Shown one piece after another: positions 8,980 to 26,315 of a DNA stretch of 64,000 nucleotides (position 1 is the stretch's first letter; every line of letters begins with the position of its first letter). The notes below the pieces were generated by a model that worked only from the letters and a program-made list of their open reading frames with translations, had not been told where the DNA came from and did not search any database. Source of the DNA: Methylococcus geothermalis (GTDB taxonomy: Bacteria > Pseudomonadota > Gammaproteobacteria > Methylococcales > Methylococcaceae). Made by a program: the position numbers and the translations under genes. The stretch spans positions 1,998,501-2,062,500 of the forward strand of contig NZ_CP046565.1 of NCBI RefSeq assembly GCF_012769535.1, read 5' to 3'.

Positions 8980-8980
8980 G

Positions 8981-10189: not shown

Positions 10190-10196
10190 GCGCCCC

Positions 10197-11153: not shown

Positions 11154-11253
11154 TGCGCCATGGAGGTGCTGAAGGCACTATCATGGCGCACCGATCGTTT
11201 CGTATGGCGCTTGACTCGGGCGTAAAATCAAAAAGATATTTGCCCGGTACCCT

Positions 11254-11269
11254 TGGTACAATTCTTGTG
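11254..11269 (+). promoter_or_regulatory. Possible sigma-54 promoter of glnA
   Basis: TGGTACA-N4-TTGTG resembles the sigma-54 consensus TGGCACG-N4-TTGCW in spacing and in the -24 GG, but the -12 GC reads GT. It would start transcription about 33 bases before the ribosome-binding site GGAGGAG (11296-11303). A competing sigma-70 reading is TTGACT (11211) with GATATT (11235, 18-bp spacer). In many proteobacteria glnA is sigma-54/NtrC dependent, which is the main reason for the call. Confidence 0.4.
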
Positions 11270-11314
11270 TAACTTATGAGTTACCCAATCCTAGCTGGAG
11301 GAGACGACCTTACT

Positions 11315-12724: not shown

Positions 12725-12762
12725 AATTTCGGGCCGTTCCCTACGGTCCATGCAGTGTACAG

Positions 12763-12797
12763 AAACCCGCCGAAATGACCCATTCGGCGGGTTTTTT
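12763..12797 (+). terminator. Rho-independent terminator of glnA
   Basis: AAACCCGCCGAA pairs perfectly with TTCGGCGGGTTT (12-bp stem, 8-base loop) and is followed by a run of T residues. It begins 38 bases after the glnA stop. The remaining 230 bases to the pstB stop hold no gene; a small GGCTCC...GGAGCC hairpin lies at about 12926-12943. Confidence 0.93.
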
Positions 12798-13031
12798 AAT
12801 GCCTCCGCGGTTTCATGCCGTCGAGCGTATCTCCTCGGATCAGGCGTCCGTACTTGCTCAGCCGGGTTTGATCGATTCGGGAAAGCTTCCGGTAACCGGA
12901 ATGGAGGCCTTTCGCAAAGTCGCGGCTCCGGCGGAGGAGCCGTCAAATAGGTCGATCAGCCGCTCTTGGCGCGCTCGGGCTGATAAGCCCCCTAAAGTCG
13001 CCTCGCCGTATTCGGGTGAGAAGGTTTCCGG

Positions 13032-13997: not shown

Positions 13998-14116
13998 GAG
14001 GGGATGGCGGTGGAGTTTCGTGTCACCGGTCCAACTTATGAATGTCGCGGAGTACCTTCCGATCGGCGGATACTTTGCGTCGCTCCATGCAGACCGAGGA
14101 CTACGACGCCGAGCCA

Positions 14117-14138
14117 TGGGATCATGAAAATGATCCCA
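14117..14138. promoter_or_regulatory. Perfect 9-bp inverted repeat between Pho box and pstB
   Basis: TGGGATCAT and ATGATCCCA flank a GAAA loop. It lies 8 bases on the pstB side of the Pho box, where the pstB -10 region or first transcribed bases should be. It could be a repressor site or a 5'-leader hairpin. The rest of 14164-14522 shows no convincing gene. Confidence 0.5.
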
Positions 14139-14145
14139 CGTTTAC

Positions 14146-14163
14146 ATGACAATTGGATGACAT
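14146..14163 (-). promoter_or_regulatory. Pho box (PhoB operator)
   Basis: Read on the minus strand, ATGTCAT-CCAA-TTGTCAT reproduces the 7-4-7 layout of the Pho box (consensus CTGTCAT-N4-CTGTCAT), with only the first base of each half differing. It lies upstream of pstB in the right orientation, so pstB is probably induced by phosphate starvation through PhoB. Confidence 0.75.
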
Positions 14164-14522
14164 GATATGGCTTAGAAGGCGGCCGCTTTGGAGCTTTTGG
14201 TCTGGGTTCAGCATTCTACCCAAGAGAACGCCAGGGCCGAATTTTGGCTGTAAGAGCGTTTGGTGAAGGGCCGGATCGCAACGAAGTCGCTCAGACCGGC
14301 GAGGCCGTGTAGCCGATTCATAGCCGATCAGAGCCCAAGGCCACGTCGAATCAAGACGTTACGGGAATTCATTTGACGATGTGAGCGTTTACAAGGTTTT
14401 GATTTCAAGGTAAGATTTTCTCGTGGTCGGCACCGGGAATGCAGCGCCTGTTGATTCTAATCCAATACAGCCACCACCCCCTCTTTAAAGTCGTAGGACA
14501 TCGTGCGCGACTCATCAGATTC

Positions 14523-14597
14523 GGGCGGTTAGCTCAGCGGGAGAGCACTTCCTTCACACGGAAGGGGTCGCAGGTTCAATCCCTGCACCGCCCACCA
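14523..14597 (+). tRNA. tRNA-Val (anticodon CAC), CCA encoded
   Basis: A 75-base cloverleaf: acceptor GGGCGGT pairs with ACCGCCC, D-arm GCTC...GAGC, anticodon stem CTTCC/GGAAG with loop TTCACAC (anticodon CAC at 14555-14557), T-arm GCAGG-TTCAATC-CCTGC, and an encoded ACCA end. Its last 15 bases are the left attachment sequence of the integrated element; the tRNA remains intact. Confidence 0.96.
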
Positions 14598-14630
14598 GTT
14601 CAAAATTTCACCGAATCTCAAAAACTCTCG

Positions 14631-14664
14631 AAACCCGCATGCTGCAAGGCTTTGCGGGTTTTTT
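14631..14664 (+). terminator. Terminator downstream of tRNA-Val
   Basis: AAACCCGCA and TGCGGGTTT form a 9-bp stem followed by a T run. It ends transcription of the tRNA and lies just inside the integrated element, so the element supplies the terminator now used by the tRNA. Confidence 0.85.
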
Positions 14665-14696
14665 GTTGTCTCGCGTCATATCGCGGAATAGCATCT

Positions 14697-14760
14697 GATA
14701 CCATCATTTTTGATGGTAGGTTTGATGGTATCCGGAGGTTTGGCGGGCCGGATACCATCA
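14697..14760. repeat. Probable integrase arm-type sites, left end
   Basis: GATACCATCA occurs at 14697 and 14751, and its inverse TGATGGTATC at 14723, with a shorter TGATGGTA at 14711. Related TGATGGTG/TGATGGTA copies lie at the other end of the element (26217-26236), close to attR. Short repeats near both att sites in either orientation are what arm-binding sites of tyrosine integrases look like. They also lie just before the integrase start, so they may regulate it. Confidence 0.6.
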
Positions 14761-14781
14761 CGCACGGTGTGAGGTGGGTGA

Positions 14782-15993
14782 ATGCTGAAAGACATCGAGG
14801 TACGCAGGGCCAAGCCGGGAGAGAAGCCGTACAAGCTGAGCGATGAGCGGGGCTTGTATCTGCTGGTGACGCCGCAGGGCGGGAAGCTTTGGCGGATGAA
14901 TTACCGGTTCGGGGGGAAGCAGCGGACGCTTTGCTTCGGGGCGTATCCGGAGGTGGGGTTGGCCGATGCCAGGGCGCGGCGGGAGGATGCCCGGCGCTTG
15001 CTGGCGCACGGGGTTGACCCTGGGGAGGAGCGGAAGGCGACGCGGCTGGCGGAGCGGGAGACCTTCGAGGCGATTGCCCGCGAGTGGCATGGGCGATTCT
15101 CGCCGGGCTGGGCGGCGAGTCATGCCAAGCGGGTGTTGGAGCGGCTGGAGAATCACATCTTTCCGCACCTGGGCGCCAAGCCGGTGGCGGCGGTGTCGGC
15201 GCCGGTGATTCTGGCGGCGCTGCGGCGGCTGGAGGACGCGGGGAAGGTGGAGAGCGCCCATCGCATTCGGGGGATCATCGGCCAGGTGCTGCGGTACGCG
15301 GTGGCCAGTGGCCGGCTTGATTCGGATCCGACGCAAGCGCTTCGCGGGGCGCTGGCGCCGGTGCGGACGGTGCATTACCCGGCGTTGCTGGACCCGGTGG
15401 AGATTGGGCGGGTGCTGCGGGTGCTGCACGGGTACACGGGCACGGCGGAGGTGCGGGCGGCCTTGCGGCTGGGGCCGTTGCTGTTTGTGCGGCCTGGGGA
15501 GCTGCGGACGATGCGTTGGGATGATCTGGACATGGAGGCGCGGGAGTGGCGGTTTACGCTGAGCAAGACTCAAACGCCGCACATCGTGCCGCTGGCGCGG
15601 GCGGCGGTGGAGATCATCGAGGAGCTGTGGCCGTTGACGGGGCGCGGGGTGTTCGTGATGCCTTCGGCGCGGTCGCCTACGGGCTTGCGTCCGATGTCGG
15701 AAGGGGCGGTGCTCGGGGCGTACCGGGCGCTGGGGATCGACAAGAGCGTGCTGGTGGGCCACGGCTGGCGGGCGACGGCGAGGACGCTGCTGGTGGAGAA
15801 GCTGGGCTTTCGGGTGGACATCGTGGAGCAGCAGTTGGGGCACGTGGTGCGTGATCCGCTGGGCCGGGCATACAACCGGACGACGTTCATCGAGGAGCGG
15901 CGGGGGATGATGGAGACTTGGGCGGGCTATCTGGAGGGCCTTCGTACCGGGGCCGGGGTGGTGCCGATCGGACGGAAGGCGGGCGGACGCTGA
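14782..15993 (+). CDS. Tyrosine integrase, P4 family
   Basis: A 403-aa site-specific recombinase that inserts and excises the element at the tRNA 3' end. The N-terminal arm-binding domain (DUF4102-like: LKDIEVRRAKPGEKPYKLSD, ERGLYLLVTP) is followed by a core-binding domain and the catalytic domain. Catalytic residues are all visible: Arg in RPGELRTMRW, Lys in LSKTQTPHIVPL, His-x-x-Arg in GHGWRATARTLL, His in QQLGH and Tyr in AYNRTTF. It reads away from the tRNA, the usual arrangement. GAGGTGG precedes the ATG. It appears fully functional. Confidence 0.95.
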   Translation: MLKDIEVRRAKPGEKPYKLSDERGLYLLVTPQGGKLWRMNYRFGGKQRTLCFGAYPEVGLADARARREDARRLLAHGVDPGEERKATRLAERETFEAIAREWHGRFSPGWAASHAKRVLERLENHIFPHLGAKPVAAVSAPVILAALRRLEDAGKVESAHRIRGIIGQVLRYAVASGRLDSDPTQALRGALAPVRTVHYPALLDPVEIGRVLRVLHGYTGTAEVRAALRLGPLLFVRPGELRTMRWDDLDMEAREWRFTLSKTQTPHIVPLARAAVEIIEELWPLTGRGVFVMPSARSPTGLRPMSEGAVLGAYRALGIDKSVLVGHGWRATARTLLVEKLGFRVDIVEQQLGHVVRDPLGRAYNRTTFIEERRGMMETWAGYLEGLRTGAGVVPIGRKAGGR

Positions 15994-16015
15994 GCGCAGT
16001 CGAACCGCTGAGCGG

Positions 16016-16297
16016 TCATAGCAGCTTCACCAGGGCGGCGACGGCGCCCACGGCGACGGCCATGAGGGCGCCGAGCTTGATGACAAGACGCTGTTCGAGC
16101 TGGATGAACCGGGCGTCGATGTCGCGGCGCAACAGCTCCAGCTCGTGGCGAAGATCGTCCTTCGTCACCAGTTCCCTCATATTCACTTCCAGGACTTCGG
16201 CCAGGGCTTCCGCTTCGGCTTCCGCCTGGGCGGGCAGGATGCCGGCTTCCTTCAGCCGCTTGGAAAACTTGAGCGTGTCGAATGTGATGGTAGCCAC
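16016..16297 (-). CDS. DUF1640-like coiled-coil membrane-tail protein
   Basis: A 93-aa protein with a GTG start placed 7 bases after a perfect GGAGG on the minus strand. An N-terminal ATITFDTLKFSKRLKEAG is followed by a charged coiled coil (EAEALAEVLEV...DDLRHELELLRRDIDARF) and a C-terminal transmembrane helix (LGALMAVAVGAVAALVKLL). This matches the DUF1640/CCDC90-like family of small tail-anchored proteins, whose bacterial function is not known. It is the only gene of the element on the minus strand and sits between the integrase and the regulator, a position often used for cargo. Confidence 0.7.
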   Translation of the reverse strand: MATITFDTLKFSKRLKEAGILPAQAEAEAEALAEVLEVNMRELVTKDDLRHELELLRRDIDARFIQLEQRLVIKLGALMAVAVGAVAALVKLL

Positions 16298-16455
16298 GGG
16301 AGGACCTCCGGCGGGCAGTTTATCATTGAAGCGCCCTGGGGTTTGATACACTTTACGCAACCGCGCCTAGCCCGGCCAGGCGATAAGAGGGAGGCCCTTC
16401 ACCCCTTTGGCGCGGTCCTATCCTTGGGGGGCTGAGTCTGTCGGGAGGCTCGATC

Positions 16456-17274
16456 GTGTCATCAGTCTACATTCCTTATTTATTGGCTGTCCGGCGGCTG
16501 CGGGCGCGGCTGGACGCGACGGCGCGGGAGCTGGCGGGCTGGGTTTTTTTGGGGCCGGAGCTGGGCGGCTTGGCGGCTTTTGTGCGGGCCGACGTGCTGG
16601 ATGATCCGCCACGTTTTTATTTTCCTTTGGCCGTCGACGACCCTGGGGCGGATTACCTGGGGGATTTGCATTATGTGTGGTTTAGGGAGGAGGACATCGA
16701 GGCCTTTGAGCCGGGTTGCCGGTTTGTGGCCGGGGGGGATCTGATCCGGCGATGGGGGAAGGCGCTGGGCGAGGACGTGCAGGATTTTATTCAGGCGAGG
16801 TGTGACGAGGGGGTGTTGGAGGTGATCTATCCGAACGCGGCGGCGGTGAGCTGGGGAGTCGGCGGCGCGGTGAGGGAGACCGCGCTTTTTTTTGCCGACC
16901 AGGTTTGGGAGGTGGAGGCGCGGCATGGGCTTGGTGATGGTGAAGGCGCGGGGGAAGCCCTGGGCGCGGATGAGGATGCGTTGGCGGTAGAGGTGATTGA
17001 GGAAGGGAATGCGCCTTGGTTTGTGGTAAAGAGGCAGAGGGATGGTTGGGTGGAGGTGTTGAAAAGGCTGGCCTGGGCGGTTCATCTTGAGCGCGGGCAG
17101 GCGGTGGACTGGGTTGAGGCATGGGTACGGCTGGTGCGTGATCCTCCGAAGGGGCTGGGGATTGAGGTGAAAGAAGGTGGCCGGGCGGTGGTAATGAAGG
17201 GAGAGAAGGAGTTGAGGAAGGATGGTTTTAAGAGGAGGTGGGGTAGGTATGTTAAGGGAGTTAAGCACATTTAA
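16456..17274 (+). CDS. Hypothetical protein, element cargo
   Basis: A 272-aa protein I do not recognise. It starts at GTG after GGGAGG. The sequence is soluble, acidic in the middle (GDGEGAGEALGADEDALAVEVIEE) and strongly basic at the end (KGEKELRKDGFKRRWGRYVKGVKHI). No signal peptide, membrane helix, nucleotide-binding or nuclease motif is evident. It lies between the integrase side and the AlpA-like regulator; in P4-like satellites the region beside the integrase is known to carry anti-phage cargo, so a defence role is possible but purely inferred. The last codons overlap a direct repeat. Confidence 0.6.
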   Translation: MSSVYIPYLLAVRRLRARLDATARELAGWVFLGPELGGLAAFVRADVLDDPPRFYFPLAVDDPGADYLGDLHYVWFREEDIEAFEPGCRFVAGGDLIRRWGKALGEDVQDFIQARCDEGVLEVIYPNAAAVSWGVGGAVRETALFFADQVWEVEARHGLGDGEGAGEALGADEDALAVEVIEEGNAPWFVVKRQRDGWVEVLKRLAWAVHLERGQAVDWVEAWVRLVRDPPKGLGIEVKEGGRAVVMKGEKELRKDGFKRRWGRYVKGVKHI

Positions 17275-17289
17275 GGGAATTAAGCACAC
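17252..17289. repeat. Two 18-bp direct repeats upstream of the AlpA-like gene
   Basis: TTAAGGGAGTTAAGCACA and TTAAGGGAATTAAGCACA follow each other with a 19-bp period and end in a further TTAA. The AT-rich repeats sit between the hypothetical gene and the regulator; they could bind the AlpA-like protein or be part of its promoter. Confidence 0.55.
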
Positions 17290-17353
17290 TTAACAATCAT
17301 CTTGTAAATCATACATTTAATCTGGTCTCCGTCATCTTTCAAGGAGACCAGGC

Positions 17354-17644
17354 ATGTATTTTCAAACCTTTCCGCGCCCCACTTCAGAGACGCATTTTGG
17401 GGTGATTCCTCGTTATCTTCGGCTTCCCGGCCTGAGGGCAAGGTACGGAGTCTCGCAGGCAACAGTTTGGCGGTGGTGCCAAATTGGTTTGCTTCCTCCG
17501 CCGATAAAACTTGCAGCGAAAACAAGCTGTTGGGTGCTTGCCGAACTCGATAGAGTCGACGAGGCCCGTGAGGCAGGCGCAACGGCGCCAGAAATCAAGG
17601 CGCTGGTAAAAAAAATCGTGGCTGACCGTCGGGCGCCGGCATGA
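17354..17644 (+). CDS. AlpA/MerR-like excisionase-regulator
   Basis: A 96-aa protein with a helix-turn-helix typical of the AlpA/excisionase group: PGLRARYGVSQATVWRWCQI followed by GLLPPPIKLAAKTSCW (residues about 25-63), where the Trp near the end of the wing is characteristic. Such proteins activate the integrase gene and/or act as recombination directionality factors in P4-like elements. AAGGAG lies 9 bases before the ATG. Its stop overlaps the start of the primase gene (ATGA-type), so both are translated from one message. Confidence 0.75.
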   Translation: MYFQTFPRPTSETHFGVIPRYLRLPGLRARYGVSQATVWRWCQIGLLPPPIKLAAKTSCWVLAELDRVDEAREAGATAPEIKALVKKIVADRRAPA

Positions 17645-20280
17645 GCGAGGCCGCCGACATTGAAAGGATTAGGTCGGCGTTGGCGTTTATTGATGCCGCC
17701 GACCGTGAAAGCTGGGTAAGAGCGGGCATGGCGGTTAAGGCCGGCCTTGGCGATGCGGGGTTTGAAATATGGGATGAGTGGAGCCGAAGGGCTGACAACT
17801 ATAACGCCAAGGCGGCGGCTGAGGTATGGAAAAGCATCCGGTCCGCCGGAGGGGTGACACTCGGTAGCCTGTTTCATCAAGCTAAGGCCAACGGCTGGCG
17901 GGACGAGGGAGGATACCAGAAGCCTTCTCCGGAGGAGCTGGCCGCGTGGCGGAGGCGGGCCAAGGAGCGGGCAGCGGCGGAGGCTGCCGAAATTGAGCAC
18001 GAGCGGGCGGAGACGGCCAGGAAGGCGGCGGCGGTGCTCAAGGCAGCGGGCGCGGCTCGGGCCGATCACCCCTATCTGATAAAAAAACAGGTGGCGCCGG
18101 TTGCGACGTTACGTGAGATCGAGGCTGGCGAGGCGGCGAAGATTATCGGTTACGTGCCCAAGGCGGGCGGCGAGGCGTTGGCCGGGCGGCTGTTGGTGGT
18201 GCCTGTCCGCCGGACCGGCGGCGAGCTGGTGACCTTGGAGTTGATCGACCAGCCGGGGCGCAAGGCGGCTTTGGCCGGGAGGGGCAGCAAATCCGGCGGG
18301 TTCTGGGCCACAGCAAGACTGCCTGACGGTGACGGCGAGGGCCTAACCCTGCTGGTTGGCGAAGGCGTGGCGACGATGCTTTCTGCCTCGGCGGCGGCTG
18401 GGGCCTTGGGCGTGGCGTCGCTGGCGGGCGGCAACCTAAAACCCGTGGCTACGGCGCTGCGGGCCAAGTACCCGGCGGCGCACCTGGTGGTGCTGGCCGA
18501 TTTGGTAAAGGTTACAGGCGAGCCTGATCCGCACTCGGTCGAGGCTGCGAGGGCGGTCGGCGGGCGGCTGGCGGTGCCGCATTTCGGCGCGGATAGAGAG
18601 CAAAACCACAAGGATTTCAATGACTTGGCTGTCGTTCGCGGGCCGGCGGCGGTGGCGGAGTGCATCGCGGCGGCGGTGCCGGTGGCGGTGGCGCAGGGAG
18701 GCGGGGCCGGGCCTGGGGCGCCGGGGGACGAGCTGGGCGAGGATGAGCCGGGTATGCAGGATGCGCCTGCGGGCTCAATAGCTCTGGTGGCGCATCGGTT
18801 GCCGGAAATCATAAATGAGATGAACGAGGCGCTGCTGCGTTCGGGTGCCGAAATATTTGAGCGGGGCGGGGGCGTCGTGCATACGTTTCGCACCGAAAAG
18901 CTCAGGCAATTGCAGGGCGGCGCCCACCTGCCGGAAGGCAGCCTTGTGATTGAGGCCGTGAGCCCGGAGTTGCTGCGGTTGGTGGCAACTAGGGACGCCG
19001 TTTTTGTGAAGTATGACGCCCGCATCGGCGGCTGGAAACGCACGGACTGCCCGATCCAGGTGGCCAGAACATTTATCGAGGCGAACGGCCTGCGGCGGCT
19101 GCGTCCGCTTCGCGGCGTGGCAAGCTGCCCGCTGTTGAGGCCGGACGGATCGATCGTCTGTGAGCCCGGCTATGACCTCCAGACCGGCTTATATCTGAGC
19201 TGGGACCTTGGCGAGATCAAGCCTGATCGGGCGGGCGGGCTGTTTGCGGCGCTTAAGGCCCGCGAGCTGCTGGAGGAAATGCTGAGCGAATTTCCGTTCG
19301 TCGGCGAGGTTGACCGGGCGGTGGCGCTGGCGGGGATTTTGACTGCGGTTATGCGGCCCTTGCTGCCGTCGGCACCCATGATTGGCGTGGACGCATCAAC
19401 GCCCGGCACTGGAAAAACAACTTTGGTCGACGTATTCGGCCTTGTTGCCCTTGGCCAGCCGGTTCCGGCGATAACGTTGGCCGGGGCAAACGAGGAGGAG
19501 TGTGAAAAGCGTTTGGGGGCGCTTCTGCTTTCTGGTGTTGGAGCATTAAACCTGGACAACCTCTCGCGGCCACTTCAATCGGATTTGCTCTGCCAAATAT
19601 TGACGGCGGCTTCCATACGTCTACGCATTTTGGGCGTATCCCGCGCCCCATCGGTGAGCACCAGCGTCTTCGTGGCGGCCACCGGCAACAACCTGTGCCT
19701 GGTCGGCGATCTGTCGCGCAGGGCCTTGGTGTGCCGCCTTGACGCCGGCTGTGAAAGGCCTGACCAGCGGGTTTTTGCCCGAAACATTGGAGATTACATT
19801 TTGGAGCGGCGCAAGGCGTTGGTAGAGGCGGCTTTGACGATCGTTGGCAACTACCAGGCAGCGGGGCGGCCTGATGTGGGCACGGCGCCCTTCGGCTCTT
19901 TTGATACTTGGAGCGAAACAATCCGAAACGCCTTGATTTGGGCCGGTGCGGCTGACCCGTGCGAATCGCGGGCCCGTATCGAGGAACTCGATCCAGTGAG
20001 GGGCGAGCTGGCGGATGTGTTGCCGCTCTGGTTTGCTCGATGGCGGGGCGAGGCGGTGCAGGTACGCGATGTGATCGAGAGTGCGGGGCTGAGCCAGAAC
20101 GATGAGCTTCGCGATGTGCTGTTGGCCATCGCGGCCAATCGCCGCGACCCGCGCCAGATTGATTCGCGGCGGCTGGGGCACTGGCTCCGGAGGTATCGAG
20201 GCCGGGTGGTTGGTGGTCTGCGGTTGGACTCGGACGGCGCCTCAGGCACCAGGGCTCGATGGCGGGTAATCAAAATTTAG
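17641..20280 (+). CDS. Phage-type primase with Toprim domain and P-loop ATPase
   Basis: An 879-aa replication protein. Residues about 5-85 resemble a PriCT-2 domain (IRSALAFIDAADRESWVRAG...EVWKSIRSAGGVTLGSLFHQAK). A Toprim-like domain follows (about 185-345: LLVGEGVATMLSASAAAG, VASLAGGNLKPVATALRAKY, DFNDLA). Its acidic pair, normally ADxD, reads VVLADLVK, so one metal-binding Asp seems lost. A P-loop (DASTPGTGKTTLV, near residue 588) and a following ATPase/helicase-like region occupy the C-terminal half. It probably primes or loads replication of the excised element. It is cotranscribed with the AlpA-like gene. Confidence 0.75.
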   Translation: MSEAADIERIRSALAFIDAADRESWVRAGMAVKAGLGDAGFEIWDEWSRRADNYNAKAAAEVWKSIRSAGGVTLGSLFHQAKANGWRDEGGYQKPSPEELAAWRRRAKERAAAEAAEIEHERAETARKAAAVLKAAGAARADHPYLIKKQVAPVATLREIEAGEAAKIIGYVPKAGGEALAGRLLVVPVRRTGGELVTLELIDQPGRKAALAGRGSKSGGFWATARLPDGDGEGLTLLVGEGVATMLSASAAAGALGVASLAGGNLKPVATALRAKYPAAHLVVLADLVKVTGEPDPHSVEAARAVGGRLAVPHFGADREQNHKDFNDLAVVRGPAAVAECIAAAVPVAVAQGGGAGPGAPGDELGEDEPGMQDAPAGSIALVAHRLPEIINEMNEALLRSGAEIFERGGGVVHTFRTEKLRQLQGGAHLPEGSLVIEAVSPELLRLVATRDAVFVKYDARIGGWKRTDCPIQVARTFIEANGLRRLRPLRGVASCPLLRPDGSIVCEPGYDLQTGLYLSWDLGEIKPDRAGGLFAALKARELLEEMLSEFPFVGEVDRAVALAGILTAVMRPLLPSAPMIGVDASTPGTGKTTLVDVFGLVALGQPVPAITLAGANEEECEKRLGALLLSGVGALNLDNLSRPLQSDLLCQILTAASIRLRILGVSRAPSVSTSVFVAATGNNLCLVGDLSRRALVCRLDAGCERPDQRVFARNIGDYILERRKALVEAALTIVGNYQAAGRPDVGTAPFGSFDTWSETIRNALIWAGAADPCESRARIEELDPVRGELADVLPLWFARWRGEAVQVRDVIESAGLSQNDELRDVLLAIAANRRDPRQIDSRRLGHWLRRYRGRVVGGLRLDSDGASGTRARWRVIKI

Positions 20281-20294
20281 TATCGTGTCAAAAC

Positions 20295-20419
20295 TTTTGG
20301 CAGTTACGACAGTTAAAGCCTATAAATATCCCCAGTGCGGAAAAATGGCACAACTTTAGGTTGTTCCATTTTTACCCTCTAGGGATAAAACAGCCCCCTA
20401 ACTGCCGTAACTGCCAAAA
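20295..20419. repeat. Nested palindromes in an AT-rich gap: candidate origin or control region
   Basis: A 21-bp inverted repeat with one mismatch brackets the region (20295-20315 starting TTTTGGCAGTTACG, and 20399-20419 ending CGTAACTGCCAAAA). Inside it lie TGGCACAAC/GTTGTTCCA (20346-20368) and TTTTACCCT/AGGGATAAAA (20370-20390). Each outer arm holds two CAGTTA units. The stretch is clearly AT-richer than the GC-rich genes around it and follows the primase gene. Replication origin and regulatory region are both compatible. Confidence 0.6.
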
Positions 20420-20508
20420 TTCGGGCCGGCGGTCGCCGGTCCAAGGCGTCCGGCCAATAGGCCGGGCAATCGCGCCGGGAGGCGCCATGATCGCGAGAGG
20501 GCGAAAAA

Positions 20509-20697
20509 ATGAACGACGCAGAGCAAAGAATAGGCGGTGCCAAGCACCACAAGTGGATGCACACCCTGCCGGTGTGGGTCTTGGTCAAACATATCGAGGC
20601 CAAGGAGCAACAAATCCTCGAACTGCTTCAGAAAAACGGCCAACTCGAAGCCCGAATCAAGGAGCTGGAGGAGGGAACCTCATATAACGGATGGTAA
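20509..20697 (+). CDS. Small coiled-coil hypothetical protein
   Basis: A 62-aa protein whose second half is a predicted coiled coil (HIEAKEQQILELLQKNGQLE, then ARIKELEE). No function is recognised. The ATG follows GAGAGGGCGAAAAA. It is the first gene after the palindromic region and precedes an 18-bp palindrome; it could be a regulator or a replication accessory. Confidence 0.55.
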   Translation: MNDAEQRIGGAKHHKWMHTLPVWVLVKHIEAKEQQILELLQKNGQLEARIKELEEGTSYNGW

Positions 20698-20706
20698 TAA
20701 AAAGCC

Positions 20707-20724
20707 GTGATGTTATAACATCAC
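20707..20724. promoter_or_regulatory. Perfect 18-bp palindrome, probable operator
   Basis: GTGATGTTATAACATCAC is a perfect dyad of the type bound by dimeric helix-turn-helix repressors. TTGACG (20735) lies just downstream and could be a -35 box for the next gene. Only one copy was found. Confidence 0.6.
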
Positions 20725-20779
20725 AAATCCTAGTTTTGACGGGGTGGTGTTCCCGCTCCGGTAACCATAAGGTGAAAAA

Positions 20780-21256
20780 ATGTCTGATGATTCAATTGTT
20801 TACAACGAAGCGCTGATCGAGGCCGACCTGGCCGACCTGCAAGAGCGGATCGACCAGGCGACCGCCGAGCTGGCGGAGCGGGGCGAGCGGGTCCGGCAGT
20901 GGTCGGCGGCTCTGAGCCCTTGCCTTCACACATCCGACGGCATACAGCATCGGCTGGCGGTGGCCCGGCGGCGGCGGGGTGAGCTGCTTTTCAAATACAT
21001 CGAGAGCGGCGACGAGGCGATGAAAGCGGAAATCGAGGCCCTGAGCTCGGAAATTCGCTTTATCGAAGATTGGGGACCGGAGTTCATTGGGCGCGTTCTG
21101 GTGGAGCATGAAAAGTGGGCCGCCCGCACGGAGCTGTTTCGAGCGAGGTACGAGGATCGAGCGGCGGACCTCAAAGCCCGTCGTAACCTGGCGCCGGCGC
21201 ATATCCTGAGCCAGCGCGAAACAACGATGTACGGGCGTCCTGTCCGGGCGGCTTGA
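20780..21256 (+). CDS. Coiled-coil hypothetical protein
   Basis: A 158-aa soluble, charged protein, largely alpha-helical (LADLQERIDQATAELAERGE, AMKAEIEALSSEIRF). No catalytic motif is recognised. AAGGTG precedes the ATG. A strong 10-bp hairpin (21270-21293) follows its stop. The clean start, codon use and position make it a real gene of the element, but its role is unknown. Confidence 0.6.
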   Translation: MSDDSIVYNEALIEADLADLQERIDQATAELAERGERVRQWSAALSPCLHTSDGIQHRLAVARRRRGELLFKYIESGDEAMKAEIEALSSEIRFIEDWGPEFIGRVLVEHEKWAARTELFRARYEDRAADLKARRNLAPAHILSQRETTMYGRPVRAA

Positions 21257-21269
21257 TTCTACCTACACA

Positions 21270-21293
21270 CCCTGCCCGATCCGTCGGGCAGGG
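21270..21293 (+). terminator. GC-rich hairpin without T tract
   Basis: CCCTGCCCGA and TCGGGCAGGG form a perfect 10-bp stem around TCCG. No T run follows, so it is a pause, RNA-processing or Rho-assisted site rather than a classical terminator. It lies between two small genes of the element. Confidence 0.45.
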
Positions 21294-21314
21294 ATTCCCT
21301 GCGGCGAGGCGTGC

Positions 21315-21524
21315 ATGAAGACAGAGCTTCTTGAAGCTATCCGGCTGCTCAAACACTCAAAGCAACTCGACCAGGCGGCCCAGGCGGCGCGGCGGGAAGC
21401 GGCGTGGCTGTTGGCGGCCTGCAACGAAAGGGACATCCGCCACGCTGCGAAGCGGACGGGGTGGACGCCTTCGGGGTTGATATGCTTGGCAAGGGCCGTA
21501 ACGGGCACTCATATAACTGATTGA
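21315..21524 (+). CDS. Small hypothetical protein
   Basis: A 69-aa basic, helical protein (LLEAIRLLKHSKQLDQAAQA...AAKRTGWTPSGLICLARAV). The KRTGWTPSGL stretch could form a helix-turn-helix, but the match is weak. It follows the hairpin at 21270 and precedes the possible virion-like gene by 28 bases, suggesting a shared transcript. Confidence 0.5.
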   Translation: MKTELLEAIRLLKHSKQLDQAAQAARREAAWLLAACNERDIRHAAKRTGWTPSGLICLARAVTGTHITD

Positions 21525-21552
21525 TCTAACAAACCATGATGGAGACAAAGAG

Positions 21553-22197
21553 ATGGGCGGTGGTGGCGGGGCTTTGACCCCTCAGATTACGGCGCAGGAG
21601 CTGGAGTACGCGAACGTGCTGCAGAATGTGCTCCAGTCGTCGAACGCGCTGACGGCGCCGGTGGAGAAGTTCGCGGTCCGCAACATGAAGGCGATGAACA
21701 CGCCTCTGGCCTACGATGCGGCGGGCGGCCTGGGGCTGAGTTCGGCCTTGCAGCAGTGGGACCCGCTGCGGCAGCAGGCGATGTACCAGACGATGGCCAG
21801 CGGTGCGGCGCCGGGCAGCGGGCGGTTCCTGGCCACCGAGACGCAGTTGGACCAGGCCAACGCGCAGGCGCGGGCGCAGGGATCGATGCAGGGGCGCATG
21901 GGCAATCTGGATGCGCGTCTCGGGCTGATGAACGCGGCCATAGGCGCCGGGCGGCAGCGGCTGGGATCGGCGGTGGATACGTTCTCCAACCTTTCCAGGA
22001 AGTCCAGCGATTGGGAGAGAAACCGGGCATCGCTGGCGAGCGAGATGGAGGCGGACAACGCCAAGGGCATCGGCAAGATGGCCGGCATGGTGGGCGGCGC
22101 GGCGCTGGGGCTCATGACCGGAGGGGCTGGCTTCGCTCTGACGGGCGCGGCCTTGGGCGGTAGCCTGGGTTCGGGGCTGGCCAGCGGGATGAGGTGA
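21553..22197 (+). CDS. Glycine/alanine-rich protein resembling podovirus ejection proteins
   Basis: A 214-aa protein with a poly-Gly start (MGGGGGAL), an Ala/Gln-rich helical middle (TETQLDQANAQARAQGSMQG, DARLGLMNAAIGAGRQRLGS) and a Gly/Ala-rich hydrophobic end (GKMAGMVGGAALGLMTGGAG). This layout resembles small internal virion (DNA ejection) proteins of podoviruses, though I see no decisive motif. If correct, it would be the only structural-type protein in the element. GGAGACAAAGAG precedes the ATG. Its stop is 1 base from the first hairpin repeat of the array that follows. Confidence 0.45.
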   Translation: MGGGGGALTPQITAQELEYANVLQNVLQSSNALTAPVEKFAVRNMKAMNTPLAYDAAGGLGLSSALQQWDPLRQQAMYQTMASGAAPGSGRFLATETQLDQANAQARAQGSMQGRMGNLDARLGLMNAAIGAGRQRLGSAVDTFSNLSRKSSDWERNRASLASEMEADNAKGIGKMAGMVGGAALGLMTGGAGFALTGAALGGSLGSGLASGMR

Positions 22198-22198
22198 T

Positions 22199-22519
22199 CT
22201 CGCGGTACTCGCCCCGCGAGTGGCGTCTGGAGATGGCGGGCGCCGGCATGCAGCCGGCGTCCTGCCCAGGTGCTCGCAGTACGTGCCCCGCGAGTGGCGG
22301 TTGTTCGACTTGCGGATGTCCCAACCAGGAGATACAACGATGTGTCTCGCAGTACTCGCCCCGCGAGTGGCGTCTGGAGATGGCGGGCGCCGGCATGCAG
22401 CCGGCGTCCTGCCCAGGTGCTCGCAGTACGTGCCCCGCGAGTGGCGGTTGTTCGACTTGCGGATGTCCCAACCAGGAGATACAACGATGTGTCTCGCAGT
22501 ACTCGCCCCGCGAGTGGCG
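22199..22519. repeat. Array of five 27-bp hairpin repeats with 46/47-bp spacers
   Basis: Repeats lie at 22199, 22273, 22346, 22420 and 22493. Each begins CTCGC, contains ACTCGC-CCC-GCGAGT (imperfect in copies 2 and 4) and ends GTGGCG. Copies 1-2 with their spacers are duplicated as copies 3-4 with a 147-bp period and a single base change. The first spacer holds another hairpin (CGCCGGC-ATGCA-GCCGGCG). The regular spacing looks CRISPR-like, but spacers are duplicated and no cas gene is present, so I read it as a REP-like or regulatory hairpin array. Confidence 0.85.
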
Positions 22520-22554
22520 TGACCTTATTGTAACCATTCTCCGCCGGGTTGTGC

Positions 22555-22647
22555 TACACTTTCAAACGTCCCCGGACGCTTCCGGGGCCGGGCGTCGAAA
22601 CCCGGTGTACTACGGGCGCACCATGCGCCAGTCGACGGCGCTTTTTT
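22555..22647 (+). ncRNA. Structured leader RNA resembling the P4 CI RNA/attenuator region
   Basis: An extended -10 (TGCTACACT, 22552-22560) is followed by three hairpins: CCCCGGA-CGCT-TCCGGGG (22570-22587), CCGGG...CCCGG (22588-22605) and GGCGCA-CCA-TGCGCC (22615-22629). The last one competes with GCGCC-AGTCGAC-GGCGC-TTTTTT (22625-22647), a Rho-independent terminator, because both use 22625-22629. The predicted transcript is about 80 bases. In P4, the CI RNA in the replication-operon leader gives immunity by premature termination; peptides readable around here (VETRCTTGAPCA, AFFCVRRYSTAGGAG) recall Ash/Icd-like annotations of P4-type islands. Confidence 0.6.
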
Positions 22648-22801
22648 GTGTCCGTCGATACTCTACGGCGGGCGGTGCGGGGCACGGTCCGTCCGTGGCC
22701 GGTTTCCCGTAGGCCGGTTTTCGACTCCCGCATCGTCCGTCACCCTTGCAGCGTCGAAACTGCTGGTGACGGTTCCCAATGTCAACTACGGAGCCAACAC
22801 C

Positions 22802-23101
22802 ATGACACCCCTTACCACGGGCGCACCACGCCCGATCATTATTTCCCTGTCCGATGCGCATCGTCTCGACGGCGATGTATGCCGGCTGGCCGACGAGCTG
22901 GAACACCTCGCGCTGATTTGCGATGACTGGGTAAACCAGTTCCCCAAGGCCAAGGCGTTGCGGGAAGTCGCCCGCTGCATCCGGGCCGCCAGCCGGGCGA
23001 TGGTTATGGCCAAGAACCCGGCCCGGCAAGCCTGGATCGAGGCGCACGCGGCGGAAGGTTCGGCCACGCTCACCGGACAGGAGGGCGGCCATGACGCATA
23101 A
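22802..23101 (+). CDS. Hypothetical protein of the RepA operon
   Basis: A 99-aa soluble helical protein (IIISLSDAHRLDGDVCRLAD, FPKAKALREVARCIRAASRA). I chose the ATG at 22802; the frame is open upstream through the structured leader but that portion looks untranslated. No known domain. It starts an operon of five tightly overlapping genes that ends with the RepA-like helicase; it overlaps the next gene by 11 bases. Confidence 0.6.
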   Translation: MTPLTTGAPRPIIISLSDAHRLDGDVCRLADELEHLALICDDWVNQFPKAKALREVARCIRAASRAMVMAKNPARQAWIEAHAAEGSATLTGQEGGHDA

Positions 23102-23387
23102 AACACACCCATCACTGCTCGGCTGCGGTTACCACCCCGTGTCCGGCCTGCCGCTGATACCGCGCCATCTGGCGAAACAGCTCAACCCCATCATCGGCTC
23201 TTACCCGCATGACACCCTAGCGAACGCCAGTGCGCTGGCGGCGTGGCTGGTCGAGGCGCTGTCCAGCACGCACGGCGAGGGGCTGGAAGGCGCGGACTAT
23301 GCCTATCTGCTGGGCCGGGCCGTCAAGGCGGCGCTTGACTTCGAGATGGAGGCGCCATTGCGCCAGGAGGAGCCCAGCCATGATTGA
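23091..23387 (+). CDS. Hypothetical protein of the RepA operon
   Basis: A 98-aa protein without a recognised domain (GCGYHPVSGLPLIPRHLAKQ, SALAAWLVEALSSTHGEGLE). It overlaps its upstream neighbour by 11 bases and the next gene by 8 bases, showing translational coupling. Likely a regulatory or replication accessory protein, but nothing in the sequence proves this. Confidence 0.6.
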   Translation: MTHKTHPSLLGCGYHPVSGLPLIPRHLAKQLNPIIGSYPHDTLANASALAAWLVEALSSTHGEGLEGADYAYLLGRAVKAALDFEMEAPLRQEEPSHD

Positions 23388-23484
23388 GCAAATCAAAACA
23401 ACGCTGGCGGCGCTGGGCATGGCCGACGTGATTTTTTCCCTTGCAGACATGCTGGCCGGGTGGCTGGCGGGAGGTGGGTTATGA
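23380..23484 (+). CDS. 34-aa hydrophobic small protein
   Basis: MIEQIKTTLAALGMADVIFS followed by LADMLAGWLAGGGL. A perfect AGGAGG (23365-23370) lies 9 bases before the ATG, and it overlaps both neighbours (8 bases upstream, ATGA downstream). The amphipathic/hydrophobic sequence suggests a membrane-associated microprotein, as with Kil-like or holin-like small proteins, but no homology is claimed. Confidence 0.5.
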   Translation: MIEQIKTTLAALGMADVIFSLADMLAGWLAGGGL

Positions 23485-23738
23485 GAGACGCGAACGCGGT
23501 TGAGCGGATGAACGGGGCGCTGCAAACGGCAGGCATGGCGGCCCGATCGGTGGCGGCGGGTCTGGTGCTGCTCCGCATGAACCGGAGCGAAGACCCCGGT
23601 CTTACCGATGATGAATACGAGGCATTCTGCTGGGGGCTGGAGCAATCGGTGATGGAAGTAGCCGAGGTGCTGGACATGGCCATGCACATGCTACGCACCC
23701 AGACCGAGGAGACGGCGCATGACCCGGCGCAACGATAG
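23481..23738 (+). CDS. Hypothetical protein of the RepA operon
   Basis: An 85-aa acidic helical protein (AVERMNGALQTAGMAARSVA, DDEYEAFCWGLEQSVMEVAE). It starts in an ATGA overlap with the microprotein and overlaps repA by 20 bases. No domain recognised; small acidic proteins in front of RepA helicases are common in plasmid and island replication operons. Confidence 0.6.
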   Translation: MRDANAVERMNGALQTAGMAARSVAAGLVLLRMNRSEDPGLTDDEYEAFCWGLEQSVMEVAEVLDMAMHMLRTQTEETAHDPAQR

Positions 23739-24924
23739 GCCGGTGGCGGTGGGAAACCTCGCGCTGCGGGTGGCCGAGATGGCGGCGCGGGCGCGGGAGG
23801 CGCCGAGGCCTTCGGCTTCGCCGGTGGCGGCTTCGGCTTCACCCGTGCCGCCGAGGCCTTCGGCTTCTTCGGTGGCGCAGTGTGGCCGGGTGACGCTGGG
23901 GGTGAACCTGTTGCAGGGCGCCAGCGTGCAGCCTGAGCCGGTCCGCTGGCTGTGGCCGGGCTGGCTGGCGAAAGGCAAGCTGCACGTCATCGCCGGGCAG
24001 CCCGGCACGGGCAAGACCAGTCTGGCGCTTTCCCTGGCGGCGACGCTGACGGCGGGCGGACGCTGGCCGGACGGCACGCCGGCGGCGCCGGGCAACGTGC
24101 TGATCTGGTCCGGCGAGGACGACGTGAGGGATACCCTGATGCCGCGCCTTCTATCCTGCGGGGCGGATCCGAAACGCTGCTTCTTCATCACCGACGTGCA
24201 GGCCGAAGACGGGCGGCGTCCGTTCGATCCCTCCCGCGACATGCCCGCCCTGCTGCGTGCGGCGCGGGAGGTTGGCGAGGTGCGGTTGCTGCTGGTCGAC
24301 CCCATCGTGTCGGCGGTGGCGGCGGACAGCCACAAAAACGCCGAGGTGCGGCGCGGGCTGGCCCCGCTGGTGACGCTGGCCGAGCGGCTGGATTGCGCCT
24401 TGCTGGGCATCTCGCACTTCTCCAAGGGCTCGGCGGGCCGTGATCCGCTGGAGCGGGTGACCGGCTCGCTGGCGTTCGGGGCGCTGGCCCGGATCGTGTT
24501 CGCGGCCTTCAAGCGCTCGGAGGAGGACGGCGGCGGCCGCTGCCTGGCGCGGGTGAAGTCGAACCTTGGGCCGGACGAGGGCGGCTTTATCTACGAGCTG
24601 GTCCTCGATGCGCTGGCCGATCACCCAGGCGTGACGGCGACCCGAGTCGACTGGGGCACGGCGGTAGCCGGTTCGGCAAGGGCGCTGCTGGCGCGGGCGG
24701 AGGCTTCGTGTGATCCGGAAGCCATGTCGGCCTTGGACGAAGCCTGCGCGTTTCTTCAGGAGTTGTTGGCGGCGGGGCCTGTTTCGGCCACGGAAGTTCA
24801 GCGGCAGGCGCTGGAAGCTGGAATGGCCTGGCGGACAGTGCGACGGGCACAAAATCGGCTAGGGATCACGCCCCGCCGGGTCGGCTTCGGAAAGGACTCC
24901 ACCTCCTTTTGGGGTCTTCCGTAG
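23719..24924 (+). CDS. RepA-like hexameric helicase (AAA_25 family)
   Basis: A 401-aa protein. After a Ser/Ala/Pro-rich leader (residues about 28-55) comes a RecA-fold ATPase: Walker A AGQPGTGKTSLALSLA (near residue 95), Walker B RLLLVDPI and a sensor GISHFSKGSAGRDPLERVTG. This is the family of RSF1010 RepA, a 5'-3' replicative helicase. The C-terminal 100 residues look like a winged helix (VSATEVQRQALEAGMAWRTV, RRAQNRLGIT). With the primase upstream and repeats downstream, it forms the replication module of the element. One partial copy of the downstream iteron core lies inside this gene (24614-24626). Confidence 0.82.
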   Translation: MTRRNDRPVAVGNLALRVAEMAARAREAPRPSASPVAASASPVPPRPSASSVAQCGRVTLGVNLLQGASVQPEPVRWLWPGWLAKGKLHVIAGQPGTGKTSLALSLAATLTAGGRWPDGTPAAPGNVLIWSGEDDVRDTLMPRLLSCGADPKRCFFITDVQAEDGRRPFDPSRDMPALLRAAREVGEVRLLLVDPIVSAVAADSHKNAEVRRGLAPLVTLAERLDCALLGISHFSKGSAGRDPLERVTGSLAFGALARIVFAAFKRSEEDGGGRCLARVKSNLGPDEGGFIYELVLDALADHPGVTATRVDWGTAVAGSARALLARAEASCDPEAMSALDEACAFLQELLAAGPVSATEVQRQALEAGMAWRTVRRAQNRLGITPRRVGFGKDSTSFWGLP

Positions 24925-24945
24925 CCCCATAGTTGGCCAAGAACT

Positions 24946-25000
24946 CCATACTTGTCCATCAAAATGGATGGACAAGTATGGTATGGATGGACAAGTATGA
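24946..25000. repeat. 15-bp inverted repeat plus overlapping direct repeat after repA
   Basis: CCATACTTGTCCATC (24946-24960) and GATGGACAAGTATGG (24967-24981) are perfect inverted repeats with a 6-base loop. ATGGATGGACAAGTATG is also directly repeated at 24964 and 24983 (19-bp period). It follows the repA stop by 21 bases; it could end the transcript or bind a replication protein. Confidence 0.7.
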
Positions 25001-25013
25001 ATCCTCCTACCTC

Positions 25014-25105
25014 CTCGCAGTACTCGCCCCGCGAGTGGCGTACTCTCGCCGAAGTCCTTCGCCGACATCCAGGCCTTCCTCGCAGTACCCGCCCTGCGAG
25101 TGGCG
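25014..25105. repeat. Second array: two copies of the 27-bp hairpin repeat
   Basis: Copies at 25014-25040 (identical to copies 3 and 5 of the first array) and 25079-25105 (ACCCGC-CCT-GCGAGT core) are separated by 38 bases. The last copy of each array is followed by a similar AT-rich sequence (TGACCTTATTGTAACC and TGATTTCATTTTACC). Both arrays sit at the 3' end of a gene block. Confidence 0.8.
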
Positions 25106-25145
25106 TGATTTCATTTTACCGATAAGGCGCCACACCTCAAACCTT

Positions 25146-25460
25146 CCAATCATCCGGCGGTGGCCGTGACGTGATGCGGGCCGGCGCTGGGCTGGACCTC
25201 CAGCCTTGGCCGATCACCCGGCGGTGGGCTGGTTCTCGAGGCCTCGCCTTGGCCGATCACCCGGCGGTGGGCTGGTTCTCGAGGCCTTGCCGAACCTCGA
25301 GGCCTTGCCGGTCCTCGAGGCCTCGCCTTGGCCGATCACCCGGCGGTGGGCCGAACCTCGAGGCCTTGCCTGATCCGAAGGCCTCGCCGGTTCCTGATCC
25401 GGAGGCCGTGCCTTGGCCGGTCACCAGGCGGTGGGCTGGTTCTCGAGGCCTTCTCCGATC
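25146..25460. repeat. Iteron-like repeat cluster, candidate replication origin
   Basis: A unit starting CCTTGGCCGATCACCCGGCG (24-bp core ending GGTGG) occurs at 25204, 25247 and 25326, with a diverged copy at 25411 and a partial one near 25146. Between them, CCTCGAGGCCTTGCC-type units recur in variants, rich in CTCGAG and AGGCCT palindromes. Spacing is irregular (43, 79, 85 bases). Clustered direct repeats beside a RepA helicase gene suggest an oriV. The ORF readable through it is low-complexity and I do not call it a gene. Confidence 0.65.
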
Positions 25461-25469
25461 CTTTCCCGA

Positions 25470-25598
25470 GTCTATCATTTTGTATACACATGATAGACGT
25501 GATAGACCGGCCTGGAAGCCGCATTTCACCGTCGATCAAAAGTTTATTTTTCGACTTTTGATAGACAGATGGAAACGCTTTTAAGACTTATGATAGAC
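25470..25598. promoter_or_regulatory. TGATAGAC repeats before the resolvase: res site/operator
   Basis: GTCTATCAT (25470) and ATGATAGAC (25490) form an inverted pair; further TGATAGAC copies lie at 25500, 25559 and 25591. TCAAAAGT/ACTTTTGA forms another dyad around 25536-25560. Serine resolvases usually bind several dimer sites directly upstream of their own gene and autoregulate, which fits this layout. Confidence 0.65.
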
Positions 25599-25640
25599 TT
25601 CTGATCGTGTTCCATTCGTCATTTTTGGGAGGTCGTCATC

Positions 25641-26219
25641 ATGAAACACCAGGTCGTGGGTTACATCCGGGTAAGTTCGGTCGGACAGAACACGGACCGG
25701 CAATTGGCGGGCGTGGCGCTGGATCGGGTCTTTGAGGAAAAGGCGAGCGCGAAGACGGTCACGGCCCGGCCCGTGCTGGCGGAATGCCTGGCCTACGTGC
25801 GGGCCGGGGATACGCTGGTCTGTCATTCACTGGACCGGCTGGCGCGGAACACGGCGGAGCTGTTGGGCTTGGTCCGGGAGATCACGGGCAAGGGCGTGAC
25901 GGTCCGGTTTCTGAAGGAGAACCTCACCTTTTCAGGGTCCGACGATGACCCGTTCAAGAACCTGATGCTGAGCATGCTAGCCGCGTTCGGGCAGTTCGAG
26001 CGGGAGCTGATCAACGAGCGGCGGCGCGAAGGCGTGGCGGCGGCACGGGCGCGGGGTCGGAAGTTCGGGGCGCCGGCCAAGCTGACCCCGGAGCTGTGCG
26101 CGAAGATCGACGCGCTTTTGGCGTCCGGGGCCAGCAAGCGGACGACGGCAAGGGCGGTTGGGATTGGGGAGGCTACGCTGTACCGCTACTTGGGAGATAG
26201 GAGCGCTTCTGGTGTTTGA
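25641..26219 (+). CDS. Serine resolvase/invertase
   Basis: A 192-aa site-specific recombinase. The catalytic domain has GYIRVSSVGQNTDRQL (nucleophilic Ser12), SLDRLARNTAELL and the long E-helix ending RELINERRREGVAAARARGR; the C-terminal helix-turn-helix is ASKRTTARAVGIGEATLYRY. GGGAGG precedes the ATG. It probably resolves multimers of the excised, replicating element, or inverts a segment. It is the last gene before attR; TGATGGT arm-like sites follow it at 26217-26236. Confidence 0.92.
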   Translation: MKHQVVGYIRVSSVGQNTDRQLAGVALDRVFEEKASAKTVTARPVLAECLAYVRAGDTLVCHSLDRLARNTAELLGLVREITGKGVTVRFLKENLTFSGSDDDPFKNLMLSMLAAFGQFERELINERRREGVAAARARGRKFGAPAKLTPELCAKIDALLASGASKRTTARAVGIGEATLYRYLGDRSASGV

Positions 26220-26236
26220 TGGTGTTTATGATGGTA
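26217..26236. repeat. Arm-type-like sites, right end of element
   Basis: TGATGGTG (26217) and TGATGGTA (26229) match the motif repeated next to attL (14697-14760) and lie 65-85 bases before attR. The first overlaps the resolvase stop. Confidence 0.5.
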
Positions 26237-26315
26237 TTCGATGAATGCGCCGAGCGTAAAAGTTCAAGTAAATCATTGGTGTAGATGAGCTGTTAAGTGT
26301 CTGCACCGCCCACCA

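Follow-up and report, generated by a model that had tools for sequence, protein, structure and literature searches.

The window analyzed here, a 64,000-nucleotide stretch of contig NZ_CP046565.1, contains an 11.7-kb element that lies between exact 15-bp copies of an attachment site (att) in a tRNA-Val gene and is almost certainly a mobile replicon controlled by a C4 antisense RNA. We regard it as probably a satellite, and on balance we lean toward an integrative self-replicating phage satellite that resembles P4 in its working and is assembled from different components. What adds most to the earlier picture is a virion-type gene, p214, that was overlooked in the original prediction, a reading of the DNA letters that had proposed a P4-like, self-replicating satellite of a methanotroph. 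The features on which the argument rests are as follows (ORF, open reading frame; aa, amino acids).

14523..14597, + strand: tRNA-Val(cac), the integration target (ARAGORN, Rfam), with attL at its 3' end
14583..14597, + strand: attL core CTGCACCGCCCACCA, the last 15 bases of tRNA-Val, an exact repeat of 26301-26315
14698..14760, no strand: left arm-type repeats, TGATGGTAT and its reverse TTTGATGGT (motif count)
14782..15993, + strand: intact tyrosine integrase, 403 aa; PF13356 (Arm-DNA-bind_3), PF22022 (Phage_int_M), PF00589 (Phage_integrase, 7.2e-13)
16360..16430, + strand: int-alpA RNA (RF02996), Rfam 46.9 bits (cutoff, 35.8)
17354..17644, + strand: AlpA-like regulator/excisionase, 96 aa; PF05930, marginal at 21.1 bits (cutoff, 21); phrog_66, 1.2e-6
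17641..20280, + strand: primase, 879 aa; PF08707 (PriCT_2) 1.8e-18, PF13362 (Toprim_3), phrog_2249 DNA primase 2.7e-42
21553..22197, + strand: p214, homologue of a Lessievirus/933W-type virion protein family (phrog_611, 1.5e-8)
22199..22537, + strand: repeat cluster A, five copies of a CTCGCAGTAC..GCGAGTGGCG unit, candidate origin iterons (repeat search)
22594..22616, + strand: a1/b1 target of C4 in the leader (b1, 22594-22601; a1, 22610-22615; from the sequence)
22661..22747, + strand: C4 antisense RNA (RF01695), Rfam 60.8 bits (cutoff, 45); a', 22707-22712; b', 22718-22725
22753..22793, + strand: a2/b2 target of C4 (b2, 22753-22759; a2, 22786-22791), overlapping the Shine-Dalgarno-like GGAG of ORF 22802
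22802..23101, + strand: ORF of 99 aa, the first gene after C4 and the proposed C4-repressed gene; 79% identical in sister element L009
23719..24924, + strand: RepA-like ATPase, 401 aa; PF13481 (AAA_25), 1.2e-39
25014..25123, + strand: repeat cluster B, two copies of the CTCGCAGTAC..GCGAGTGGCG unit, behind repA (repeat search)
25470..25598, no strand: candidate res site, five TGATAGAC motifs, one of them reversed (motif count)
25641..26219, + strand: serine resolvase, 192 aa; PF00239 (9.3e-37), PF02796
26215..26237, + strand: right arm-type repeats (motif count)
26301..26315, + strand: attR core CTGCACCGCCCACCA, the exact 15-bp repeat of attL

The ends of the element bear out the predicted att repeats, arm-type repeats, and intact integrase, the last by its three Pfam domains. 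ARAGORN detected tRNA-Val(cac) as the sole tRNA of the window, and the two copies of CTGCACCGCCCACCA in the whole window are those at 14583 and 26301, with 0.0003 expected under a dinucleotide model. The arm-type nonamer TGATGGTAT occurs four times in the 64 kb (at 14723 and 26229 and, in reverse, at 14698 and 14752) versus 0.14 times expected; all four copies, two per direction, lie no more than 200 bp from the element ends. In G005 and G004, two genomes of the same genus, the tRNA-Val gene joins the right-hand flank directly (i.e., the site is empty). Judged by its anatomy, the element is mobile. As a separate observation from the match table only, the tRNA copies and the right flank in genome G002 are far apart (about 4336850 to 48733, across the record ends), and the same tRNA-Val there may hold another, much larger insertion of a different kind.

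The leader upstream of ORF 22802, described as CI-RNA-like in the original prediction, was recognized by Rfam as a C4 antisense RNA. Its central segment a' (CCGTAG in the window) is complementary to a1 upstream and to a2 on the Shine-Dalgarno-like GGAG. The RNA search, which covered stretches of the host's own genome, G001, G002, G003, and G005, detected C4 in those of the own genome, G001, G002, and G005 and an int-alpA RNA without C4 in that of G003. In all, eleven loci have C4: the window, L009, L010, L023, L034, L036, L081, L082, L084, L085, and L088. Among the 10 elements tested for covariation, the 6-nt a' segment has nine different sequences (L034 and L085 have one in common). In all 10, a' fits its own a2 without a mismatch (0 of 60 positions); permuted pairings averaged 19.6 mismatches, and none of 200,000 did equally well. 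In the nine elements compared for a1, a' likewise fits the upstream target throughout (0 mismatches at 54 positions), against a permutation mean of 18.5, and 1 of the 200,000 permutations equaled this. For L088, a2 was identified by eye; L010, which has lost its upstream target, was not part of the a1 count; and smaller 6- and 5-element versions of the test came first. The extraction pattern missed the segments of L082, where by eye GCTTCC fits GGAAGC on both sides. C4 RNAs of P1/P7 and P4 have this flanking-target layout, and the window RNA is like them (RF01695, with targets RF03163) in having two flanking a/b targets, the second on the ribosome-binding site; the target family RF03163 reaches its Rfam cutoff in L023 only and not in the window. 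Unlike C4 in its known P1 and P4 roles, the window RNA precedes small ORFs and repA. Antisense-RNA control of the P4/P1 type is well supported.

The predicted primase, RepA-like protein, and resolvase were all confirmed by Pfam, and a P-loop motif was read by eye in the C-terminal half of the primase. The AlpA-like protein stands marginally. The iterons named earlier exist as iteron-like repeats: exact matches to the unit CTCGCAGTACNCGCCCNGCGAGTGGCG number eight across the 3.37-Mb genome (reversed control, 0) and are confined to its two full elements, four in the window element and four in a sister element at 3.29 Mb. All copies point in one direction, and each element has them in two clusters, located ahead of the C4 leader and behind repA; the five unit copies of cluster A lie inside a 147-bp stretch that is present twice. 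Ahead of its C4, the G002 element carries three copies of another repeat, likewise palindrome-like by eye. We infer that the clusters may be lineage-specific candidate origin repeats. Five of the six window copies of TGATAGAC fall in the candidate res site ahead of the resolvase, and similar sets occur in L009 and L034.

Related elements had been named as something to look for, and the window element proved not to be a singleton. The own genome, likely that of a Methylococcus, contains a second full-length element (L009, 3282000-3301900, adjoining tRNA-Met) and two remnants (L010 and L011). Four main pieces of L009, with DNA identities of 80 to 95%, align with window positions 20682 to 26182. 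The integrase of L009 differs (54% identical) and has the opposite orientation, its primase is of another type (Prim-Pol, PriCT_2, DUF3987), and its att candidate is 14 bp with one mismatch. G002 contains L034, which adjoins tRNA-Ser with an exact 44-bp att repeat, and a second element, L081; G001 contains several element pieces on broken contigs, and G005 contains one element at tRNA-Met. The integrase of the window element has an 81% identical relative adjoining tRNA-Met of G005, its primase has a 60% identical relative in L035, and its resolvase is 84 to 100% identical in relatives. The sister elements of the genus exchange integrases, primases, and cargo. L034 carries BrnT/BrnA, and L081 carries Gabija between repA and the resolvase (13472-16619; GajA, 3.9e-231; GajB, 2.3e-189), with a 912-aa ORF upstream of the Gabija genes in the same interval. 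Such cargo is as in satellites and supports the satellite reading.

More distant RepA relatives (40 to 56% identity) occur at 13 contig loci, proteobacterial except for one acidobacterial metagenome-assembled genome (MAG), and RepA relatives are also present in viral contigs (L053-L059). The surroundings of the 13 loci resemble those of the window element: in 6 of them (L021, L024, L025, L028, L029, and L030) a tRNA or tmRNA is followed by an integrase match within 0.4 kb, and 5 of the 8 loci examined (L021, L022, L025, L027, and L029) have exact direct repeats. L025 (Malikia sp. MAG, NZ_JAQTZS010000019.1, 5735-16800) is a tRNA-Ser element with an exact 17-bp att; it encodes an integrase, a RepA 49% identical to that of the window element, an HK97-type capsid protein, a protease, a portal protein, and a large terminase, together with a CHC2 zinc-finger ORF slightly under the Pfam cutoff. 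By gene content it resembles a capsid-forming phage-inducible chromosomal island (cf-PICI), and its presence among the RepA relatives also supports the satellite reading.

The phage connection of the window element lies in p214, whose residues 3 to 195 match phrog_611. A phage-only profile, built from four phage or prophage members, gave 45.6 bits (2.9e-13) on p214 versus 9.9 bits (0.026) for the best of 2,000 shuffles, which rules out a composition artifact as the source of the match. When the window and 23 loci were translated in six frames, the copies in the window, L009, L034, L035, and L037 ranked high with this profile, and only ORFs of two prophage-like regions ranked above them; the p214 of L036, a short C-terminal piece, is not among the profile matches listed. 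In an hhalign comparison of four copies from the elements with four phage copies, the probability was 95.6. The L009 copy has a tblastn identity of 92%, or 97% when aligned positions alone are counted. The ratios of nonsynonymous to synonymous substitution rates (dN/dS; Nei-Gojobori method, without a significance test) were 0.143 (window/L009), 0.235 (window/L034), 0.299 (window/L035), and 0.163 (L034/L035).

In L034 (G002) and L036 (G001), p214 is directly followed by a phrog_596-type gene (8e-5 for L034). The two partner genes are 85% identical (dN/dS, 0.135), and hhalign of the pair against phages gave a probability of 87.8. Phages have the same order: p65, p66, and p67 of phage phiARM81mr match phrog_611 (4.3e-86), phrog_596 (6.9e-51), and phrog_594 (5.5e-31), respectively, and phage K249 has phrog_611 directly before phrog_596. 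In the prophage-like regions of G012 and G021, the set consists of phrog_611, an acetyltransferase-like ORF (by eye), and phrog_596; a 1,073-aa protein with a glucosaminidase domain comes after it in G012, and a phrog_511 internal virion protein stands ahead of it in G021. The pairing of p214 with a phrog_596-type gene in phage order supports the satellite reading.

A family relative has been detected in particles. JC1 gp64, which is 90% identical to BcepIL02 gp66, matches phrog_8003 (virion structural protein) and phrog_611 (2.4e-9), and mass spectrometry of cesium chloride-purified JC1 virions yielded nine unique peptides of it with 45% coverage (PMC9144972). Given this detection and the low dN/dS, we conclude that a family relative is virion associated and that the gene is kept by these elements. 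The place of the family in the module, before a giant DarB-like protein, suggests that its members may be ejection proteins in the strict sense. Whether p214 itself enters a particle is, in our judgment, evenly balanced.

Matches to p214 are rare. It was matched in 6 of 101 relatives: the own genome, G001, G002, the prophage-like regions of G012 and G021, and, weakly, G008. The G008 match (2.8e-4) was rejected; it lacks a phrog_611 match and lies antisense to an elongation factor G-like ORF (by eye). In the class, 2 of 369 genomes had matches, the own genome and, weakly, G322 (2.7e-5, inside a 1,609-aa frame). A sequence search of solved structures with p214 gave nothing meaningful.

Among known satellites, P4 occupies a tRNA site, has a CI RNA, and is about 11.6 kb in size. 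The window element is like P4 in its AlpA-type gene, primase, and C4/CI-type antisense RNA control, and it is unlike P4 in having a separate RepA and resolvase and a virion-type gene of short-tailed phages. Its relatives also have a defense cargo slot, comparable to the P4 defense hotspot (PMC9122126). A published definition of P4-like elements lists seven components, including integrase, AlpA (PF05930), PF03288, Psu, Delta, epsilon, and Sid (PMC8628076). The window element has the integrase (PF00589), and its AlpA-like protein matches PF05930 at an E value of 2.9e-4, versus a maximum of 1e-5 in that definition, with bits barely over the Pfam cutoff. In the Pfam scan, which covered 16 distinct element ORFs (the PHROG scan covered 10), there was no match to Psu (PF07455), Delta (PF04606), or epsilon (PF10554), and none to the alpha primase-helicase family PF03288 up to an E value of 0.1, although the element has a primase. 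Membership in the P4 family was rejected accordingly; "P4-like" holds for regulation and fails for family.

Like Gram-negative PICIs, the element combines an integrase, an alpA-type regulator, and a primase module at small size. It has the integrase, replication module, and regulator named among the PICI criteria, and its 11.7 kb is slightly under their size range of about 12 to 15 kb (PMC6092414). The criteria also call for an att site that prophages never occupy; at this tRNA, G002 may have the larger insertion noted above. They further call for the absence of phage structural genes (PMC6092414), in contrast to the window element with p214, virion-type by homology. Capsid-forming PICIs have a capsid and packaging set of their own (PMC10690885); this class was rejected, as the scanned ORFs had no capsid, portal, protease, or terminase Pfam match. 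The element is also like the phage-inducible chromosomal minimalist islands (PICMIs) of Vibrionaceae in having int, alpA, and primase genes and no recognized capsid-remodeling gene. Unlike the PICMI model (PMC10803314), it is at tRNA-Val rather than next to fis and has more genes, and the primase at 17641-20280 has no DUF3987/DUF5906 (sister L009 has DUF3987). Finally, p214 and its partner in sister elements match the consecutive phrog_611 and phrog_596 genes of a Lessievirus-related virion module (BcepIL02, JC1, phiARM81mr, and K249), none of whose other genes was recognized in the elements. Known satellites include one that carries a tail fiber gene (MiniFlayer) and others that carry capsid genes (PMC10690885). 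In the open-license literature, we found no paper joining a phage satellite with an internal virion protein, nor one joining a satellite, a virion structural protein, and a podovirus; one passage on ejection in the satellite literature concerns polyamines (PMC7567579). The main text of a survey of Methylococcus prophages describes no phage satellite and uses the word "satellite" once, for bacteria (PMC12924245).

Several results weigh against a satellite that uses p214. No helper phage of the window element was found. A marker of the phage virion module, phrog_511, had no match in six genomes of the genus and was present in 2 of 61 relatives (G012 and G021 only), and the prophage survey reports eleven prophages in nine Methylococcus genomes, of which the ten compared in detail were classed as sipho- or myoviral (PMC12924245). 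No capsid, terminase, or capsid-size gene was recognized in the scanned ORFs (packaging signals were not searched for), and weak terminase-small-subunit PHROG matches were confined to the helix-turn-helix part of the resolvase. The phrog_596-type gene is absent from the window element and L009, the L036 partner gene has no PHROG match at 0.1, and p214 occurs in 4 of the 11 C4 loci (window, L009, L034, and L036); several of the C4 loci without it are remnants or are partial, ending at contig ends. The protein also weakly matches a holin and a tape-measure family, below the cutoff, and its single-sequence AlphaFold model is poor (mean predicted local distance difference test score, 59). With p214 or its G012 prophage relative as the query, tblastn against 50,697 phage records gave no match, and viral contigs, scanned twice (17 and 30 candidate stretches), yielded no p214 relative; the phage link is therefore by profiles only. 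For the antisense RNA, shuffled C4 gave duplex energies as good as those of C4 with its targets in this G+C-rich stretch; energies alone were uninformative, and the covariation test was used in their place.

Much of this would fit a plasmid-like integrative element without a specific helper, moving by transformation, conjugative mobilization, or generalized transduction, in which p214 would be a stray phage gene with another use. Such an element would account for the replication and multimer-resolution genes, for the lack of recognized capsid and terminase genes and of phrog_511 in the genus, and for p214 in so few C4 loci. We nevertheless consider it unlikely: no relaxase or conjugation gene was found among the 16 ORFs, in line with the original prediction; p214 and its partner stand in phage order in two elements with low dN/dS; and the size, AlpA, C4, and cargo slot are all of the satellite type. 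More doubtful still is a role of p214 in interference, by which it would poison helper particles and give the host immunity, with no help in satellite delivery. A virion-protein homologue without the remainder of its module is what interference predicts, and satellites often interfere with their helpers (PMC6092414); against this, a pair of module genes has been kept in phage order by two sister elements, an arrangement that fits assembly equally well. A decayed Lessievirus/933W-type prophage, left with integration, replication, and one virion gene, is very improbable: p214 homology and the decayed pieces of the same family in the genome (L010 and L011) would suit it, but this compact gene set is found again at other tRNAs and in other genomes, att repeats are exact for the window and L034 (L009 having its candidate), p214 dN/dS is well below 1, and int and primase are exchanged between elements otherwise alike.

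Of the proposal that this is a self-replicating satellite, then, the tRNA-integrated, self-replicating element is well supported, and dependence on a helper phage is likely. The statement that a full phage structural module is missing was right as worded; the single virion-type gene, ORF 21553-22197, had escaped it. Under the satellite reading, in the resting state, C4 would be cut from the leader transcript and pair with a1/b1 and a2/b2 over the ribosome-binding site of ORF 22802, silencing the ORF22802-repA operon. Upon entry of a helper phage, AlpA would promote excision, the primase and RepA would replicate the circle from the repeat clusters, and the resolvase would split multimers. Packaging functions and capsid of the helper would carry the element DNA, and p214 (with its partner in two sister elements) would be made late and be incorporated into the particle, an internal or ejection protein encoded by the satellite. 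We give a helper of the Lessievirus/933W type an even chance.

More tentatively, these elements might form a satellite class with one or two internal (ejection) virion proteins of its own that customize delivery by short-tailed particles, combined with P4/P1-type antisense immunity in which the variable a-segment sets incompatibility groups. Satellites are known to use the heads of their helpers, as they are or remodeled, and cf-PICIs to make heads themselves; a satellite with only an internal virion protein would, if the proposal is true, point to DNA delivery as another customizable step. It would also name the helper type to seek, in a host group used in bioreactors, and the eleven C4 loci, with matched but differing antisense segments, offer a way to study antisense-RNA specificity and plasmid-like incompatibility.

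The host itself is likely a methanotroph, as predicted, because its genome has two genes of PF02461, a family that covers PmoA and AmoA; one is at window positions 55832-56545, and the second is elsewhere in the genome. The remaining features of the element are listed below.

16016..16294, - strand: small coiled-coil protein, CCDC90-like (PF07798, 2e-6, 28.2 bits, below the cutoff of 33.5), with relatives in L083 and L084
16456..17274, + strand: ORF of 272 aa without a Pfam, PHROG, or PADLOC match
20780..21256, + strand: ORF of 158 aa, conserved in sister L009 (dN/dS, 0.18)
21315..21524, + strand: ORF of 69 aa, conserved in sister elements (sequence comparison)
23091..23738, + strand: three small ORFs (98, 34, and 85 aa) between C4 and repA, the 34- and 85-aa ORFs matched in L009 and L034
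25185..25470, + strand: approximately 80-bp G+C-rich repeats in the repA-resolvase interval, where sister elements have their cargo slot (repeat search)

Several of the small ORFs had no match in Pfam or PHROGs, and the proposed C4-repressed ORF 22802 had a dN/dS of 0.29 against L009. Behind the p214/phrog_596-type pair, L034 encodes a J-domain (DnaJ) protein (10680-11457) with a relative in L081. Between repA and the resolvase, L036 carries a three-gene cargo (7268-9706) without a PADLOC match, possibly an undescribed system.

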